Assembly (NCBI GenBank): GCA_028819075.1
Contig: JAPPMM010000065.1
Span: forward strand, 147,067 to 211,066
DNA length: 64,000 nt
DNA from: Gammaproteobacteria bacterium
GTDB lineage: Bacteria > Gemmatimonadota > Gemmatimonadetes > Longimicrobiales > Gaopeijiaceae
Direction: 5' to 3'
Each line of letters opens with the position of its first letter. The stretch's first letter is position 1. The notes under the pieces are model-generated. The model searched no databases and was not told where the DNA came from. It saw only the letters and a program-made list of their open reading frames with translations. This document shows positions 49,780 to 56,772 of the stretch, one piece after another. The position numbers and the translations under genes are program-made.

Positions 49780-50967
49780 ATGATGCCGGCGCACCAAAAG
49801 ACGACGATCACGGCAGGAGCGGCACCGAATTTCCATTCCGACCCGCACCCGGGCACCCATGGCGGCAAGCGCCGGCGGAAGCGGCGGCCGGATTCGAAGG
49901 CATCCGCAAGGACGGCGCTCGGAGGCATGCTGCTCGCAGCCATGGCGTTCTCCTCCTCCGCACTCCAGGCCCAGGATCCGCCCTTCCGGTCCTATGGCGG
50001 CTCCAGTGTCTCATTCGATGCGCGCGTGCACGCGCAGTACGAGGCGCCGAGCACCGAGGGCGCCGTCTCGACGTTTTCCATGCGGCGCGCCTGGATCACG
50101 CTGGACGGGCGCTACAACGACTTCGTCAGCGGTCGCCTCCAGTTCGAGGCGCTGCGCGGAGGCACGGTGCTGGACGCGTGGCTCACGTTGAGCTTCTCGG
50201 AGGCCTTCGTGCTCAACATGGGTCAGTTCAAGCGCGGCATCTCGTACTTCTGGCTGGTGCCCAACTCGGACCTGCCGCTGATCGAGCGGGACGCGAGGGT
50301 ATCAGGGATAGCAGAGGAGCATGCGTGCCCCGGGATTGGAGGAGTCTGCTCGTTCGGCAACCTTGCCTTCAGGCTCGGCCTGAACGGGTACGAGCCCGGG
50401 TTGCTGATGACGGGCCGCCTCGGCAGCCGCGCGAGCTACCGCGTCACGCTCACGAACGGGGAAGGCATCGACAACCGGGACGCCAACAACTGGAAGTCGA
50501 CCACCACGCAGCTGTCCTTCGACCTCACCGAAGACAGCCGTTTCGCGGCCTACGCCTCATTCGACGAAACCCACTTCGACCACGGGTCGGCCTGGACCCC
50601 GGCCTACGGGCTCGAGTTCGAGGCGGGGACATGGCGCGACGGGGGCCACCTGCTGCTGGGGGCGATCCGGGGGCGGAACTGGAGGGTGTCCCAGAACACC
50701 CCGTTCACGGCGTTTCAGGCGATGGGCCTCTGGTATGCGCGGCTGCCGGAGACCGCCCGCTTCGAGGCCATCGAGCCTCTGCTGCGCCTGAGTTGGGCCA
50801 GGACCGAGGATGGCGACGGCGGGGACTTTTCCGGCTTCACGATCACCCCCGGCTTCATGCTTTATGCCTTCGGGAAGAACGGCATCTCCACCAACCTGGA
50901 TATCTACCGGTCCTCGCTCGACCGCACCGAATGGTCCCTGAAGGTCCAGGCGTTCACGTACTTCTAG
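49780..50967 (+). CDS. Porin, phosphate-selective porin O/P-like
   Basis: Outer-membrane beta-barrel of about 395 aa. A long basic N-terminus precedes a signal helix (about residues 47-63, LGGMLLAAMAFSSSALQAQ), so the true start may be downstream, although AGGAGG at 49772-49777 supports the first ATGs. After the signal, alternating-residue strands appear (RRAWITLDGRYNDFVSGRLQFE and LNMGQFKRGISYFW; the latter with SDLPLIERD resembles porin O/P). It ends in Phe (AFTYF), the aromatic signal for barrel insertion. The transported solute cannot be read from sequence. It is followed by the signalling locus. Confidence 0.85.
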   Translation: MMPAHQKTTITAGAAPNFHSDPHPGTHGGKRRRKRRPDSKASARTALGGMLLAAMAFSSSALQAQDPPFRSYGGSSVSFDARVHAQYEAPSTEGAVSTFSMRRAWITLDGRYNDFVSGRLQFEALRGGTVLDAWLTLSFSEAFVLNMGQFKRGISYFWLVPNSDLPLIERDARVSGIAEEHACPGIGGVCSFGNLAFRLGLNGYEPGLLMTGRLGSRASYRVTLTNGEGIDNRDANNWKSTTTQLSFDLTEDSRFAAYASFDETHFDHGSAWTPAYGLEFEAGTWRDGGHLLLGAIRGRNWRVSQNTPFTAFQAMGLWYARLPETARFEAIEPLLRLSWARTEDGDGGDFSGFTITPGFMLYAFGKNGISTNLDIYRSSLDRTEWSLKVQAFTYF

Positions 50968-51031: not shown

Positions 51032-51364
51032 TCAGAAGCTGTCGATCGCCTGCTCGACGGTGTCACGAACCGTCATGATGCGCGTGAAACCGCTGACCTC
51101 CAGCACCTCCCGGACGTGGTCCTGCACTTGGCACAGCGCCACTCCCCCACCCTGCGCACGGGTCTTCTTGACCGCGAGGAGGAGAATGCGCAGGCCGGCG
51201 CTGCTGATGTACGACAGCTCGCCGCAATCTACGACCAGACGGCTGGAACCGCCCTCCATGGCCTTGCTCAACTCCTGTTCGAAGGAGGTCGCGTTTACCG
51301 AATCAACGCGGCCGCTTACGGCCGCGATCACGGCGTCCCCGGACTGACTGGCTGTGACTTTCAC
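51032..51364 (-). CDS. STAS-domain anti-anti-sigma factor (RsbV/SpoIIAA-like)
   Basis: 110 aa, exactly the single-domain length. The GTG at 51364 overlaps the stop of the kinase gene (GTGA) and begins VKVTASQSG. The longer frame to 51415 is less likely. The switch motif YISSAGLRILL carries the phosphorylatable Ser (54/55), the residue that an RsbW-type kinase modifies and a PP2C phosphatase restores. Both enzymes are encoded next door (51361-51807 and 52164-53315). When dephosphorylated it should sequester the kinase and free its target. The target sigma factor is not encoded here. Confidence 0.92.
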   Translation of the reverse strand: MKVTASQSGDAVIAAVSGRVDSVNATSFEQELSKAMEGGSSRLVVDCGELSYISSAGLRILLLAVKKTRAQGGGVALCQVQDHVREVLEVSGFTRIMTVRDTVEQAIDSF

Positions 51365-51807
51365 GGATTTGGATCCCCTGTCGCGCCCTGCAGCGGCTGT
51401 GTGAGGGTCAGGCAATTTCGCTTTTTATCGCGTCGATAGGATATGTCGTGCACGAGGTTCTTGGCAAGGTGGATGCCGAGCCCTCCGATGGGTCGCTCGT
51501 CCACCGGCAGCGTGAAATCCGGGAGCGGCGCGTCGGCCAGCGGATTGAACGATCGTCCGTTGTCTTCGATGCGGACTTCCAGCAGTTCGTCTCCCAGCCC
51601 GAAGTCCACGCGAATCCTCGGTTCCTCCGGCGCTTTCTCGAACCCGTACGAGATGACGTTGGTGAGGATTTCGTCCAGCGCCAGACAGAACCTCTGCACT
51701 ACGAGATCGCTTACGCCGTTCGCTGTGGCGAAGCGCTCGAACACCTCCACGACCCTTCGAGGCTCGTGCTGGTCCGTCCCCACATCAATCCCAAGCGTGA
51801 CATCCAT
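51361..51807 (-). CDS. RsbW-like anti-sigma factor / serine kinase (HATPase_c_2)
   Basis: 148 aa GHKL-fold kinase. The N box LALDEILTNVISYGF, the G1 motif EDNGRSF and the glycine-rich G2 GGLGIHLAKNL are typical of RsbW/SpoIIAB. There is no TM segment or extra domain. It is followed by, and translationally coupled to, the STAS gene (4-bp overlap). Expected action: phosphorylate the STAS protein and bind a target (usually a sigma factor) in alternate states. No sigma gene lies in the window, so the client may be encoded elsewhere or be something else. Confidence 0.9.
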   Translation of the reverse strand: MDVTLGIDVGTDQHEPRRVVEVFERFATANGVSDLVVQRFCLALDEILTNVISYGFEKAPEEPRIRVDFGLGDELLEVRIEDNGRSFNPLADAPLPDFTLPVDERPIGGLGIHLAKNLVHDISYRRDKKRNCLTLTQPLQGATGDPNP

Positions 51808-52163
51808 GCGTCGATCCGCCGCTGTGCCCCAACGACTGCGCCATTCTCCCTTTGTTCCGCACCCGGTTCCTCCGCCGACCTGTGCCGGGCGCCGACGGCT
51901 TCCGGATTTGCCGGCCTAACAACCTATCACGGCAGGCTCGAATGCGCATCCCTCGATACCCCGGCGTCACCACCACGCGCCGGCAACGCCAAACCGGAAG
52001 CTGATCTCGAACATTTGCGAGCTCGGACAAGTGCGGATCGTTGTTGCCAACGGGCGCGCAAAGAGTAGTTTTGGGCGACGCCAACGCCCGATCAGGCTCC
52101 CGCGCCAGCCGGCCGCCGGCCCCAGCGGAATGCATCGGGATCGCTTCTCTTTCGGGAGGACGT
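51808..52163 (+). other. 356-bp divergent control region of the partner-switch locus
   Basis: No gene is supported here. On the plus strand TTGCCA (52044-52049) lies 16 bp before TAGTTT (52066-52071), a weak promoter candidate for the phosphatase operon, followed by GGGAGGACGT before its ATG. The minus strand has an extended -10-like TGATAGGTT (about 51920-51930) without a good -35. A GTTG/CAAC inverted repeat lies at about 52040-52051. An operator shared by both directions is possible but unproven. Confidence 0.35.
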
Positions 52164-53315
52164 ATGAAGAAGATTCTTGTGGTGGACGACGAGCCGGATC
52201 TCGAGCTTCTCCTCAGGCAGAAGTTCCGCCGCAAGATGCGCCGGCGGGAGATCGAACTCGTCTTCGCCAGCAATGGTGTCGAAGCGCTCGACAAGCTGAA
52301 CGAGCAGGACGACATCGACATGGTCCTGTCGGACATCAACATGCCGGAGATGGACGGGCTGACGCTCCTCAGCCAGATCAACTCTCTGGACCTGGACCTG
52401 CGCGCGGTGATCGTCACGGCGTACGGCGACATGGAGAACATCCGCACCGCCATGAATCGCGGCGCGTTCGACTTCCTCACCAAGCCGATCAACTTCGACG
52501 ATCTCGAGACCACGATCGACAAGACGATCCGTCATCTGGAGGTGATGCGCGAAGCGCTTCGGTCCCGCGACGAGCTCGTTGCCCTGCGCCAGGAGCTGGG
52601 GGTGGCGGCTCAGATGCAGGACTCGATCCTGCCCAAGGTCTTCCCGCAGCATCCCCGTTACGGCCTGTTCGCCTGGATGACCCCGGCCAAGGAGGTGGGC
52701 GGCGACTTCTACGACTTCTTCCCGGTGGAGGATGAGGGGTTTGCCGTGGTGGTCGCGGACGTCTCCGGCAAGGGAGTTCCCGCCGCGCTGTTCATGATGG
52801 TCAGCCGGACCCTCGTCAAGGGATCCGCCCTTGGCGAACGGGAACCCGTAAAATGCATAACCGAGGTCAACCAGCTACTCTACGAACAGAACAAGGAGTC
52901 GATGTTCGTAACCATGTTCTACGCGGTGCTCGATCCGGCATCGGGGCTTCTGCAATACGTAAACGGAGGCCACAACCTCCCCTGTCTGGTCAAGCCCTCG
53001 GGCGAGGTGACATGGCTGCCGGGGGACAGCGGCATCGTTCTCGGCGTGATCGACGAATTCCCCTATCAGCAACACTCGATGCAGCTGGAGGAGGGCGATG
53101 TCGTCTTCTTCTACACGGATGGCGTGACGGAAGCGATGGACGAGGCCGGAAACCAGTTCGGGGACGATACCCTGCTGGATGTCCTGCGAAGGGCGGCCGG
53201 CGCGGACCCCGAGGACATGACGCGCCAGGTGGTCGATGCTGTCCATGAGCATGCCGGCGGCGCACCCCAGTCCGACGACCTGACCTGTCTGGCGCTCCGA
53301 TACGGGGGAGACTGA
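52164..53315 (+). CDS. Response regulator with PP2C/SpoIIE phosphatase output
   Basis: 383 aa from ATG 52164, with a strong GGGAGG site 5 nt upstream. Receiver domain (1-120): Asp57 in MVLSDINMPEMDG and Lys107 in FDFLTKPI. A linker helix (about 122-150) precedes the SpoIIE/PP2C domain (about 160-383) with metal-binding Asp in GGDFYDFF, VVADVSGKG, and SDDLTCLALRY at the end. The receiver should be phosphorylated by the histidine kinase of the same operon and then activate dephosphorylation of the STAS protein (51032-51364), as in the RsbP/RsbU logic. It overlaps the next gene by 1 bp (TGATG). Confidence 0.93.
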   Translation: MKKILVVDDEPDLELLLRQKFRRKMRRREIELVFASNGVEALDKLNEQDDIDMVLSDINMPEMDGLTLLSQINSLDLDLRAVIVTAYGDMENIRTAMNRGAFDFLTKPINFDDLETTIDKTIRHLEVMREALRSRDELVALRQELGVAAQMQDSILPKVFPQHPRYGLFAWMTPAKEVGGDFYDFFPVEDEGFAVVVADVSGKGVPAALFMMVSRTLVKGSALGEREPVKCITEVNQLLYEQNKESMFVTMFYAVLDPASGLLQYVNGGHNLPCLVKPSGEVTWLPGDSGIVLGVIDEFPYQQHSMQLEEGDVVFFYTDGVTEAMDEAGNQFGDDTLLDVLRRAAGADPEDMTRQVVDAVHEHAGGAPQSDDLTCLALRYGGD

Positions 53316-54532
53316 TGAGACGCGGGACGGGGTGCCGGCGCGCAAGGCCCGCGACCCATGCTGTGACGCCTCGCCATGCTGCCACCGCGGTCTTTCTGGG
53401 GGTCCTGGTCGGCGCTCTGGCGGGCTCGCCGCTGGCGGCCCAGTCGGAAGCGGAGGGCGTCTTCGCGGATTCGATCGTGTTCGGGCAGTCGGCCGCCTTC
53501 ACCGGCCCCACGAGCGAGCTTGGTTCCAACATGAGGCTCGGGATACTCGCGGCGTTCGAGGAAGCCAACCGGCGCGGGGGCGTCCAGGGACGGATGCTTC
53601 GGCTTCGTTCGCGTGACGACGGATACGAACCGGAAGCCGCTTCCGACAACACGCACACGCTTATCGCCGAGGGAGTGTTCGGGCTGGTGGGCGCGGTGGG
53701 AACTCCCACCTCCACCGCGGCCGAACCGGTCGCGAGCGCCGCGGGCGTCCCCTACATCGGGCCGTTCACGGGCGCGGAATTCCTGCGTGAGAACCGCGAC
53801 TTCGTAGTCAACCTGCGCGCATCCTACTTCCAGGAAACCGAAGAGATGGTCGAGCGCCTGACCACGGACCTCGGGTTTACGCGCTTCGCGGTCCTGTATC
53901 AGGACGACAACTACGGCAACGCCGGACTGACCGGCATGCGCCGCGCTCTGGGCAGGCGCGACATGGTCCTGGTGGCCGAGGGAGCATACGTCCGCAACAC
54001 CACGGCGGTGAAGCGGGCACTTCTCGACATCCGCGAAGGCAGCCCCCAGGCCGTGATCATCATCGGCGCTTACCAACCCGCAGCCACGTTCATCAGATGG
54101 GCGCGCCGCATCGGCGTGAACGCCATCTTCGTGAACATCTCGTTCGTGGGCAGCAACGCGTTGCTCAACGAACTGGGGGCAGCGGGCGAGGGTGTCGTGG
54201 TTACCCAGGTCGTCCCGTTCCCCGGGGACACTTCCGTTCCCGTGGTGGCCCGCTACCACGAGGCGCTGGAAGTCGTGGACCCGGATGCGAGTCCCGGCTT
54301 CGTCTCGCTCGAGGGCTACCTGGCCGGACGTCTGATTGTCGAAGGGCTGGACCGGACGGGCCCGGAGCCGACCCGCGAGAGCTTCCTCGGGACGCTGCGG
54401 GAAGCAGGGCCCATCGATCTGGGCGGGTTCGAGGTGGAGTATGGCGAGCGGGACAACCAGGGCTCGGACCGCGTGTTTCTGACCCGGATCCAGGCTGGCC
54501 GTTTCCGGGCCATGGAGCGGCTCTCGCGATGA
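53315..54532 (+). CDS. Periplasmic Leu/Ile/Val-type substrate-binding protein
   Basis: 405 aa. Signal sequence to about residue 42 (VFLGVLVGALAGSPLAAQ), then a type I periplasmic-binding fold: IVFGQSAAFTGPTSELG, AFEEANRRGGVQGR, LVGAVGTPTSTAAEP, VLYQDDNYGNAG, FVSLEGYLAGRLIVEGL. No permease or ATPase gene is nearby. It is instead translationally coupled to a receiver-phosphatase (upstream) and a histidine kinase (downstream). It is therefore likelier to be a sensory ligand-binding partner than a transport component, analogous to TorT with TorS. The ligand is unknown; amides, amino acids and small acids are common for the fold. Confidence 0.9.
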   Translation: MRRGTGCRRARPATHAVTPRHAATAVFLGVLVGALAGSPLAAQSEAEGVFADSIVFGQSAAFTGPTSELGSNMRLGILAAFEEANRRGGVQGRMLRLRSRDDGYEPEAASDNTHTLIAEGVFGLVGAVGTPTSTAAEPVASAAGVPYIGPFTGAEFLRENRDFVVNLRASYFQETEEMVERLTTDLGFTRFAVLYQDDNYGNAGLTGMRRALGRRDMVLVAEGAYVRNTTAVKRALLDIREGSPQAVIIIGAYQPAATFIRWARRIGVNAIFVNISFVGSNALLNELGAAGEGVVVTQVVPFPGDTSVPVVARYHEALEVVDPDASPGFVSLEGYLAGRLIVEGLDRTGPEPTRESFLGTLREAGPIDLGGFEVEYGERDNQGSDRVFLTRIQAGRFRAMERLSR

Positions 54533-56772
54533 CTCCTCCGGTTCAGGAGGGTCTGGACTCCAGAATCCATTCCACCTTCGAGTGGGTTCTGGCAAAACTG
54601 CCGTCCGGATGGGGGACCAGGGTCCGCAAAGCCACGGGCAACCGTTTCGGGATCGCGAGTCAGATCTGGGTGGGGCTGGGTGGGGGCGTGACCCTGACTC
54701 TGGTGGCGAGCGTGCTGGCGCTGGGTCTCATGACGATCGTCAACGCGAGCCAGCGGGATGTCACCGGCACCTATATGCCGGGGATGATCGCCGCCTTCGA
54801 CGTAGCGCAAAGCAGCTCGGAACTGGTGCGTGCTTCGCCCAGGCTGATCGCGGCCGATACGCCGGAAGACCTGGCGCTGGTCGAAACCGACGTGATGCGG
54901 GAGGAGGAGTTCCTGCGAACCCGCCTTGGGGAAATGACCGGGACCGGCATGCAGGGCGCGCTGCAGGATTCGGTGGTGGTGCTTGCATCCAACCTGGTGG
55001 AAAGCATCGACCTCATCCGGGAATCGGTGGCCAGGCGCCTGACCTATCGCGCCCGGGTCGGCGACCTTGAGCGCGAAGTGCTGGAGCTCACGCTGGGAGC
55101 CGAACTCCTCCTGGTCGCCGCAATCGACGATCAGGACTTCTTCATGGCAACGGGATTGCGGGAGCTCACGGACCAGCCGGCGCCGACTTCCGCCAGGAAC
55201 GCGCCCGAGCAACTGGACCAATACAGAGGGCTGCTCAATTACCAAACGAATCAGAACGCGGTTTCGTTGCTCATCCAGCGAGCCCTTACCCAGGACGACC
55301 CGGGTCTCCTGCAGACCAACCGGGAGCGGGTAACGGCCGCCATGGGCAACCTCCAGAGTGACCTGGATGACCTGTTGCCCGCGACGGCGGCCCTGCTGCG
55401 GCCTTCCTTCGAGCGTCTCGGGGATCTCTATTCGGCCGCGAACGGGATATACACCATTCGCACCCTCGAGCTGGCCGAGCTGGCCGAGTCCGAGGAGTAC
55501 CTGGCCCTCAACGAAGCGACCACCAACGACCTGAACGCGCTCGTTCAACCATTGGTGGAGAACGCGGAGATCTCGACCCGGGAGGCGGCGGACCGGTCGG
55601 CCACTCTCCTGCAGATCGGCTGGTGGACGATCCTTGCGGTCAACGTCCTGGCTGTGCTGGCGGCCGTCTTCGGAGGCTGGAAGTTCTTCGGTGAGCGCCT
55701 GCTGGTCCGGCTGCGCCACCTCTCCGACGTGATGCGCCGCATGTCCAGGGGCGAACTGGAAGCGAAGCTGGAGATTGCCGGCAACGACGAGGTCACCGAC
55801 ATGGCGGGCGCTCTCGAGGTGTTCCGCCAGCACGCCATCGAAGTTCAGCGCCTGAACCTGGTGGAGGCGCTTGCCACCGAAGTCCAGGACAAGAACGCCG
55901 AGCTTGAGAGCACGCTCGACGAGCTGCGGCGCACGCAGGAACAGGTCATCACCCAGGAGAAGCTGGCATCGCTCGGCGCACTGACGGCGGGCGTAGCCCA
56001 CGAGATCCGCAACCCGCTCAACTTCGTCAACAACTTCGCGGCGCTCTCCGTCGAGTTGATCGACGAGTTGCGGGAGGAACTCGGCATGGAAGGAGAGAGC
56101 GGCAACGGTGACGGCGCGGGACCGCTCGCCGCCGCCGGCGACGAAGAGTTGACCGAAATCGTGGACGAGATCCTGGGCGACCTCCAGCTCAACATCTCCA
56201 AGGTCAAGGAGCACGGCGACCGGGCGAACCGCATCGTCGACGGCATGCTGGCCCACTCCCGCGACGAGGCCGGCCAGATCGAGTCCATCGACATCAACCT
56301 GCTGGTGGAGGAATACACCAAGCTCGCCTACCACGGGATGCGCGGCACCGACGCCACCTTCAACGTCACCATCACCCGCGAACTCGACCCCGAGGCAGGC
56401 CGCGTCGACGGCATCGCGCGCGATCTCAGCCGGGTCATCCTGAACATCGTCACCAACGCCTGTCAGGCCACCCAGATGCGCGGCAAGGCGGAAGGCCGCG
56501 GGTACTCGCCCACCCTGCTCGTGTCCACCGAGGGACGGGGCGACACCGTGTGCATCAAGGTGCGGGACAACGGCACCGGCATGCCCGAGAGCGTCGTGCG
56601 CAAGATCTTCGACCCCTTCTTCACCACCAAGTCCGGCACCCAGGGCACCGGCCTCGGGCTGTCGATCTCGCACGAGATCGTCCGCGAGCACGAAGGGCAG
56701 CTCGCCGTGGAAACCGAAGAGGGCGAATTCACGGAGTTCACCATCATCCTCCCGCGGGTGAAAGGGAAATAG
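54529..56772 (+). CDS. Large sensor histidine kinase with TorS-like periplasmic domain
   Basis: 747 aa from ATG 54529, overlapping the binding-protein stop (ATGA); the open frame upstream is a shadow. TM1 at about 46-71 and TM2 at about 364-383 enclose a 290-residue, almost all-helical periplasmic sensor with short motifs (SSSELVRASPRLIAADTPED) resembling TorS-type sensors that bind a PBP. HAMP (about 385-438), coiled coil, DHp with His491 in GVAHEIRNPLNFVNNF, an insertion of about 35 acidic residues, then HATPase motifs (NIVTNACQAT, DNGTGMP, GTGLGLSISHEIV). Its likely receiver is the phosphatase encoded two genes upstream. The 3' end overlaps comM on the opposite strand. Confidence 0.92.
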   Translation: MTPPVQEGLDSRIHSTFEWVLAKLPSGWGTRVRKATGNRFGIASQIWVGLGGGVTLTLVASVLALGLMTIVNASQRDVTGTYMPGMIAAFDVAQSSSELVRASPRLIAADTPEDLALVETDVMREEEFLRTRLGEMTGTGMQGALQDSVVVLASNLVESIDLIRESVARRLTYRARVGDLEREVLELTLGAELLLVAAIDDQDFFMATGLRELTDQPAPTSARNAPEQLDQYRGLLNYQTNQNAVSLLIQRALTQDDPGLLQTNRERVTAAMGNLQSDLDDLLPATAALLRPSFERLGDLYSAANGIYTIRTLELAELAESEEYLALNEATTNDLNALVQPLVENAEISTREAADRSATLLQIGWWTILAVNVLAVLAAVFGGWKFFGERLLVRLRHLSDVMRRMSRGELEAKLEIAGNDEVTDMAGALEVFRQHAIEVQRLNLVEALATEVQDKNAELESTLDELRRTQEQVITQEKLASLGALTAGVAHEIRNPLNFVNNFAALSVELIDELREELGMEGESGNGDGAGPLAAAGDEELTEIVDEILGDLQLNISKVKEHGDRANRIVDGMLAHSRDEAGQIESIDINLLVEEYTKLAYHGMRGTDATFNVTITRELDPEAGRVDGIARDLSRVILNIVTNACQATQMRGKAEGRGYSPTLLVSTEGRGDTVCIKVRDNGTGMPESVVRKIFDPFFTTKSGTQGTGLGLSISHEIVREHEGQLAVETEEGEFTEFTIILPRVKGK

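Follow-up and report, generated by a model that had tools for sequence, protein, structure and literature searches.

What feeds into a partner switch is seldom known, and in many Gram-negatives neither is its output. The RsbK-RsbY-RsbV-RsbW-SigB system of Bacillus cereus joins a histidine kinase, a receiver-PP2C phosphatase, a STAS protein and RsbW in a single chain. A Gram-negative set of receiver-PP2C phosphatase, STAS protein and RsbW, with no linked sigma gene, is RbaY-RbaV-RbaW of Rhodobacter capsulatus, in which rbaY lies apart from rbaVW (PMC3999984), and in Synechocystis the STAS/RsbW switch Slr1861/Ssr1600 has SigC as its client (PMC12329169). No periplasmic binding protein (PBP) takes part in the B. 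cereus or the R. capsulatus system, and neither a PBP nor a linked sensor kinase is described for that of Synechocystis. A periplasmic binding protein does signal to a helical sensor domain in TorT-TorS, where TorS is a hybrid kinase with receiver and Hpt domains and the output is a DNA-binding regulator. The locus described here carries elements of all these systems side by side.

The window, that is, the whole 64,000-nucleotide stretch of DNA that was analysed, contains five intact genes at 51032-56772, whose coordinates and Pfam matches agree with the layout given in an earlier sequence-only reading: a STAS/RsbW-like pair divergent from an operon of three genes. The STAS gene (51032..51364, minus strand, GTG start; a longer open frame extends to 51415) encodes a 110-aa protein resembling anti-sigma-factor antagonists of the RsbV/SpoIIAA type, and its neighbor (51361..51807, minus strand) a 148-aa RsbW-like serine kinase or switch protein of the HATPase_c_2 type. 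A putative divergent promoter region (51808..52163), in which a four-way alignment reveals two blocks strongly conserved within the genus, separates this pair from the genes for a receiver-PP2C phosphatase of the SpoIIE/RsbU type (REC-PP2C; 52164..53315, plus strand, 383 aa), a type I PBP of the Peripla_BP_6 family with an export signal (53315..54532, plus strand) and a sensor histidine kinase (HK; 54529..56772, plus strand, 747 aa). The overlaps of 1-4 bp by which these genes had been said to be coupled measure 4 bp (RsbW-like/STAS), 1 bp (REC-PP2C/PBP) and 4 bp (PBP/HK). Neither an ABC permease gene nor a sigma factor gene lies next to the locus.

The combination of genes had been called unusual. 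A neighborhood search for PBP, HK, REC-PP2C, RsbW and STAS shows instead a widespread cassette that looks odd only in a single genome. Across two families of Gemmatimonadota, 20 of 20 orthologous loci retain the set, and the linkage persists even with 3-5 kb of other genes inserted in the gap; at one locus (L079) RsbW is missing and is located elsewhere in the same genome. Of the 42 sampled Gemmatimonadota genomes that encode a REC-PP2C orthologue (at least 62% identity), every one encodes the PBP orthologue too, so that loss of the PBP or kinase from a phosphatase keeping another sensor, which the sequence-only reading had named as evidence against itself, was not found in them. A wider scan, seeded with the PBP only, covered 80 loci in eight phyla beyond Gemmatimonadota; 47 of them contain the module, with all five genes within the stretch in 36. 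The usual form there is one operon, STAS>REC-PP2C>RsbW>PBP>HK, and REC-PP2C stays with the PBP and kinase except at contig ends. Coupling is tight: the PBP and HK genes share exactly 4 bp in 40/65 cases, and the RsbW and PBP genes in 22/37. The RsbK/RsbY type of linkage, a histidine kinase beside REC-PP2C, STAS and RsbW, is found in Gemmatimonadota and eight further phyla. Together, the Gemmatimonadota loci and the 47 loci of other phyla exclude chance as the source of the arrangement. The cassette recurs in at least nine phyla with its order shuffled and its parts intact, which makes it a general design for signalling rather than a curiosity. Each of its parts was already known; no description of the whole PBP-kinase-REC-PP2C-STAS-RsbW cassette was found in the open-access literature. 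Several of the carriers are sponge-derived genomes.

The same comparison bears on whether two separate systems merely adjoin here, a PBP-kinase-receiver phosphatase and a STAS/RsbW pair that works with other phosphatases. Such a division would suit the divergent orientation of the pair in the window, the second STAS-RsbW-GAF-PP2C module and further STAS genes in the same genome, and the seven gammaproteobacterial loci in which no local STAS gene was seen (two of them on contigs ending inside the module); one alphaproteobacterial locus is without both STAS and RsbW. We nevertheless consider it improbable, given that most other phyla have all five genes in one operon with short overlaps and that the linkage of the two halves outlasts insertions in Gemmatimonadota. 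Correlations between the pairwise-distance matrices of the five proteins lie at r 0.78-0.91, and since every pair correlates highly, these distances mostly show joint inheritance; the partial correlation of PBP and sensor is only 0.09, and mirror-tree partial correlations do not single out this pair.

An RsbU/V/W-type set is complete at the sequence level, with a SpoIIE-type PP2C, a phospho-Ser-type STAS protein, a GHKL serine kinase and all catalytic residues. REC-PP2C matches Response_reg (9.8e-26; receiver at about 52173-52517, plus strand) and SpoIIE (4.2e-57; phosphatase at about 52731-53303, plus strand), both above the curated Pfam cut-offs, and residues D8, D9, D57 and K107 of the receiver and D181, D199, D319 and D371 of the PP2C domain are conserved throughout the module loci. 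The STAS protein exceeds the curated cut-off of Pfam STAS (1.2e-21) and scores 83.7 bits against NCBIfam ant_ant_sig (cut-off 53.45); its candidate phospho-acceptors, S54 and S55 in the motif SSAGL, are both invariant in 57/57 module loci. In the product of 51361..51807, which matches HATPase_c_2 above the curated Pfam cut-off (1.4e-23), N-box residues E46 and N50 and the G-box residues are invariant (63/63). Its score of 36.3 bits against the NCBIfam RsbW equivalog, with a cut-off of 145 bits, makes it RsbW-like, not RsbW by name.

The HK comprises two transmembrane helices flanking a periplasmic helical domain (about 54742-55644), followed by HAMP, HisKA (H491) and HATPase_c; HAMP and HATPase_c lie above the curated Pfam cut-offs and HisKA just below. 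The sensor profile matches that of TorS (3o1h) with an E-value of 1.3e-05, PF21689 is matched in 50 of 63 HK members, and the top Foldseek matches of the AF2 model (mean pLDDT 87.1) are the TorS-TorT complexes 3o1i/3o1h, at TM 0.81-0.84 by target length. Profile, Pfam and predicted fold all identify the outer domain as a TorS sensor domain, in agreement with the TorS-like kinase described earlier. The whole protein scores 147.1 bits against the TorS equivalog TIGR02956, whose cut-off is 676.5. Unlike TorS, the HK contains no receiver or Hpt domain detectable with Pfam, the PBP here belongs to Peripla_BP_6, and the output is a phosphatase rather than a DNA-binding regulator.

The PBP itself matches Peripla_BP_6 at 3.8e-56, above the curated cut-off, with 4kv7 as the nearest solved structure (E 2.5e-71), and eleven motif residues that were checked are kept in 67/67 module loci with one exception at D101. 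Its closest general families are binding proteins of branched-chain amino acid transporters, as would be expected of an ABC transporter component placed here by accident. We rejected this origin as extremely improbable: no permease adjoins the PBP in any module locus, cassette genes flank it, and a LivH gene occurs at one locus only (L180), roughly 4 kb past the kinase. Permease association in relatives, which the earlier reading had regarded as damaging, was therefore not seen in the module loci. Moreover, a complete LivHM locus, with a PBP of its own that is 24% identical, is present separately in the window's genome; the ABC transporter (HAAT) subfamily score is 60.3 bits against a cut-off of 477; and in a PBP tree built without two paralogue rows, module and other PBPs are split by 2 changes, compared with 29.4 for shuffled labels. 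Sister-group PBPs adjoin chemoreceptors bearing the same sensor domain as the HK, which argues that PBP and sensor form a pair. The PBP of the window lacks a plausibly placed lipobox; in most Acidimicrobiia and many Chloroflexota module loci the PBP bears a lipobox or membrane anchor, as fits a receptor adjoining a membrane kinase.

Gene linkage across phyla, the catalytic residues, the lack of an adjoining permease, the TorS sensor domain and the PBP-chemoreceptor pairing together give good support to the reading of the five genes as a conserved cassette that encodes a single signalling pathway, a reading to which we assign a probability of roughly 0.75. The comparison upholds the proposed chain from solute through kinase, receiver-phosphatase and STAS to RsbW; each binding and phosphorylation step, and their order, we infer from family knowledge. 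A ligand reaching the periplasm would be bound by the PBP, which would dock onto the TorS-like outer domain of the HK; the HK would alter phosphorylation of the REC-PP2C receiver and so turn on the phosphatase domain. The phosphate placed on the STAS serine by the RsbW-like kinase would be taken off by REC-PP2C, and STAS without phosphate would bind RsbW, which would release its client. As the cassette encodes a soluble receptor, whose ligand should be findable by simple binding screens, a defined set of five proteins opens the input of a partner switch to direct testing.

Pocket residues of the PBP did not fix the ligand class. The neighbors of the cassette are suggestive: AmtB is encoded at 12 of 20 Gemmatimonadota loci, GlnE at 4 and GlnA at 2, and in four relatives glnE, with or without glnA, is inserted between the RsbW-STAS pair and the REC-PP2C operon. 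Outside the signalling chain, a recurrent neighbor is a CP-ATP-grasp/Alpha-E/transglutaminase operon, often with amtB; CP-ATP-grasp, in several distinct arrangements, occurs in 12/47 module loci and 0/33 other PBP loci (p 0.001). In Burkholderia, NtrC/sigma54 activates this Anbu-associated operon (PMC5491218), and P. putida has more Anbu under nitrogen limitation (PMC5666114); the passages on it mention no signalling cassette. About three quarters of the non-Gemmatimonadota module loci have no nitrogen genes within the fetched stretch, and in the window's own genus the nitrogen operon lies elsewhere in the genome (C2). Recurrent linkage to AmtB, GlnE/GlnA and an operon that NtrC activates in Burkholderia suggests a nitrogenous ligand, and from this linkage we give an even chance to a nitrogen-status signal (amino acid, amide, urea, polyamine or similar) with an output that adjusts nitrogen acquisition.

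At the output, the cassette is less self-contained than had been claimed: the input half stands, and the output half lacks a sigma client near the locus. Such a client had been declared missing, and indeed no SigB/F/G-type sigma factor was found in the window's genome, which besides ECF-type factors encodes two that are RpoD/RpoS-like; that the client is a sigma factor was itself an assumption. This would leave the second RpoD/RpoS-like sigma factor, of group 2, or a non-sigma protein as the client. Control of protein activity in place of transcription, with a non-sigma client such as an enzyme that serves second-messenger signalling, transport or peptide ligation, is a serious candidate, though at somewhat below even odds. 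It accords with the sigma factor content of the genome, the linkage of AmtB and the CP-ATP-grasp operon to the cassette in several phyla, and the precedents of SypE/SypA (PMC12826045) and PA3346/PA3347-FlgM (PMC8256260), although the linkage may reflect co-regulation only. Release of a sigma factor and with it a nutrient or stress regulon, as in Bacillus, with the input half as proposed, is more doubtful. Two RpoD/RpoS-like factors are available for this role, the second being the best candidate (G000 C43:264877), and the Synechocystis switch acts on a group-2 factor tied to nitrogen deficiency (PMC12329169); against this, the loci examined contain no sigma gene linked to the cassette, partner switches of Gram-negatives often have other clients, and a search for the RbaVWY client in R. 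capsulatus failed (PMC3999984).

That amtB and the CP-ATP-grasp/Alpha-E/transglutaminase operon keep turning up beside the cassette gives a concrete lead on what this operon does. Tentatively, and with the odds against it, we suggest that the nutrient-receptor cassette moves horizontally, is common among sponge-associated bacteria in many phyla, and couples a periplasmic nitrogenous ligand to a partner switch that controls no SigB-type sigma factor and governs ammonium uptake and this peptide system; if so, the enigmatic peptide system would gain both its signal and its regulator. Convergent with the STAS gene lies a putative outer-membrane porin gene (49780..50967, plus strand), OprO/OprP-like with a Pfam Porin_O_P match of 0.002 that is below the cut-off, which adjoins the cassette in 15 of 21 Gemmatimonadota loci and whose product is possibly the entry channel for the ligand.

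The five-gene locus proposed in the sequence-only reading, comprising genes for a STAS protein and an RsbW-like kinase divergent from genes for a receiver-phosphatase (REC-PP2C), a periplasmic binding protein (PBP) and a TorS-like histidine kinase, was found with all five genes intact and in the positions originally described (window 51032-56772; the window spans G000:C65:147067-211066 in a genome of 4.4 Mb and 97.6% completeness). The STAS gene starts with a GTG at 51364, and neighboring genes overlap by 4 bp (RsbW/STAS), 1 bp (REC-PP2C/PBP) and 4 bp (PBP/kinase). Each domain of the five proteins was confirmed with Pfam and NCBIfam. The RsbW-like protein scores far under the NCBIfam RsbW equivalog cut-off, and "RsbW-like" is therefore the right name. 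Within the genus, two blocks of the divergent intergenic region (51808-52163), one around CCGGATTTGCCGGCCTAACAACCTATCACGG and the other around CGTTGTTGCCAACGGGC, show near-perfect conservation. A GTTGTT element on both strands possibly marks two promoters of one type.

RsbK/RsbY/RsbV/RsbW and TorT/TorS are established families, and the proposed order of steps is modelled on them: by analogy, ligand binding by the PBP would act on the kinase, which would signal through REC-PP2C and the STAS protein to the RsbW-like protein and its client. The parts and sub-chains are already known; no description of the complete ligand-to-switch cassette, its spread or its nitrogen linkage was found in the literature searched.

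For the sensor of the kinase, a profile of 63 sensor domains best matched TorS sensor structures (3o1h, E 1.3e-05, near full length), and PF21689 (TorS_sensor_domain) matched 50 of the 63; the window's own sensor scored 19 bits, under the curated cut-off of 27 bits. Its AlphaFold2 model (mean pLDDT 87.1) gave TorS sensor-TorT complexes as best Foldseek matches (E about 1e-06, TM 0.81-0.84 by target length).

Elsewhere in the genome, a canonical LivHM locus (C43) has its own PBP, 24% identical to that of the cassette, and another permease pair lies on C16. Two closer paralogues (C24 and C47; 40-41% identity) have no adjoining permeases. SpoIIE-type phosphatases and strong HATPase_c_2 proteins number two each, one in the cassette and one in a second partner-switch module on C14 (L025:4536-6983, minus strand; STAS, RsbW, GAF-PP2C), flanked by coaD-like and ksgA-like genes. 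Sixteen proteins contain Sigma70_r2: two are RpoD/RpoS-like, neither reaching the SigB/F/G cut-off, and the others look ECF-type.

A search of 395 Gemmatimonadota genomes revealed PBP orthologues (63-100% identity) among several family f1 genera and, within family f7, in genus g73, with three more copies at 57-61% and all others at or below 45%. In 20 orthologous loci, STAS, REC-PP2C, PBP and kinase were always retained, and RsbW was in place in 19; the exception, G035, encodes a strong RsbW relative elsewhere. Each of the 42 genomes with the REC-PP2C orthologue carries the PBP orthologue as well. Linkage persists even where glnE (four loci), together with glnA in two of these, occupies the divergent gap. 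AmtB is a near neighbor of the cassette in 12/20 loci, as is the putative porin gene (49780-50967, plus strand, in the window) in 15/21, window included.

Other phyla were scanned once, at the level of genome contigs, using a PBP alignment headed by the portion of PDB 4kv7 that could be aligned; at least 80 loci matched, and the counts apply to the 80 listed, a sample biased towards that sequence. Among the matches listed, profiles built from Gemmatimonadota genes recognized the module in 47 of 80 loci, in Actinomycetota (Acidimicrobiia), Chloroflexota, Acidobacteriota, Latescibacterota, Rhodothermota, Nitrospirota, Binatota and Pseudomonadota, with all five genes inside the fetched stretch in 36. 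STAS, REC-PP2C, RsbW, PBP, kinase is the commonest order outside Gemmatimonadota; some Gammaproteobacteria and Binatota have RsbW, STAS, REC-PP2C, PBP, kinase instead, and in Nitrospira RsbW is divergent. Overlaps are tight, the larger ones being unreliable since starts were script-chosen. No local STAS was seen in seven gammaproteobacterial module loci (two on contigs ending inside the module), STAS and RsbW were both missing from one alphaproteobacterial locus, and acidobacterial L179 had STAS, RsbW, PBP and kinase with no PP2C match. PBPs from most Acidimicrobiia loci and from several in Chloroflexota bear a lipobox; those of three Chloroflexota loci have an N-terminal membrane helix instead. 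Three Chloroflexota loci (L131, L140, L143; about 4.3-6.2 kb) have three extra STAS genes or domains upstream, one fused to a receiver, an unusual direct join of two-component system and partner switch.

Catalytic residues do not vary across module loci, one alignment gap aside: this holds for the serines of the STAS SSAGL motif, the N-box and G-boxes of RsbW, the aspartates and lysine of the receiver, the metal aspartates of PP2C, and the H, N and G residues of the kinase. Eleven checked PBP motif residues were conserved in 67/67 loci with one substitution, at D101, which would fit a single ligand class; several are also common to non-module PBPs. On a 104-row PBP tree the module label changes twice, versus 29.4 times with shuffled labels. 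Branching departs from phyla: an earlier build nests Nitrospira among Gammaproteobacteria and Binatota and joins a Latescibacterota row to Rhodothermales, which suggests that the cassette was transferred as one unit. Across the parts, distance matrices show pairwise correlations of 0.78-0.91, consistent with a unit though no proof of contact between any two proteins.

The 33 non-module PBPs adjoin chemoreceptors, hybrid kinases or, in Bradyrhizobium and a planctomycete, GGDEF-EAL proteins; some of these PBPs have no signalling partner in view. The chemoreceptor cases are alphaproteobacterial, with the PBP directly upstream in L113, L125, L127, L137, L139, L141 and others; these pairs are candidates for PBP-fed chemotaxis, and several of the chemoreceptors share the cassette kinase's TorS-like sensor domain. 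At L156:7869-10973 and L184:7752-10972, where no signalling partner was seen near the PBP, it is followed by a probably secreted protein of ~625 residues with repeated, adhesin-like GLVG motifs.

CP-ATP-grasp genes lie inside the stretch at 12/47 module loci versus 0/33 other PBP loci (Fisher p 0.001, uncorrected for relatedness); about 0.2 would be expected at one gene per 3.5 Mb. The accompanying set, its gene names confirmed by Pfam, includes AmtB at five module loci. Its position differs between loci: it may follow the kinase, precede RsbW, diverge from REC-PP2C, or lie past STAS or the porin; this varied placement argues for repeated linking to the cassette rather than a single inherited accident. 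In the window's genome the AmtB-CP-ATP-grasp-Alpha-E-transglutaminase operon is on C2 (L192:7037-11849), not at the cassette, and its neighbors are a glutamine synthetase-like gene and one encoding a small, conserved outer-membrane-like protein. Earlier studies report 6- to 9-fold decreases of DUF404/407, DUF403 and transglutaminase-like genes in a Burkholderia cenocepacia ntrC mutant (PMC5491218) and a rise of Anbu, which in other genomes belongs to operons of this type, when Pseudomonas putida is limited for nitrogen (PMC5666114); in marine metagenomes, domains of this operon cluster with urea metabolism (PMC3597751).

Several cassette carriers were recovered from metagenomes of sponges. One such specimen, 277c, belongs to Petrosia ficiformis (PMC8941161), and the bin names RHO, CAR, COS and APA fit species studied in PMC8163846, a correspondence that we infer from name matching.
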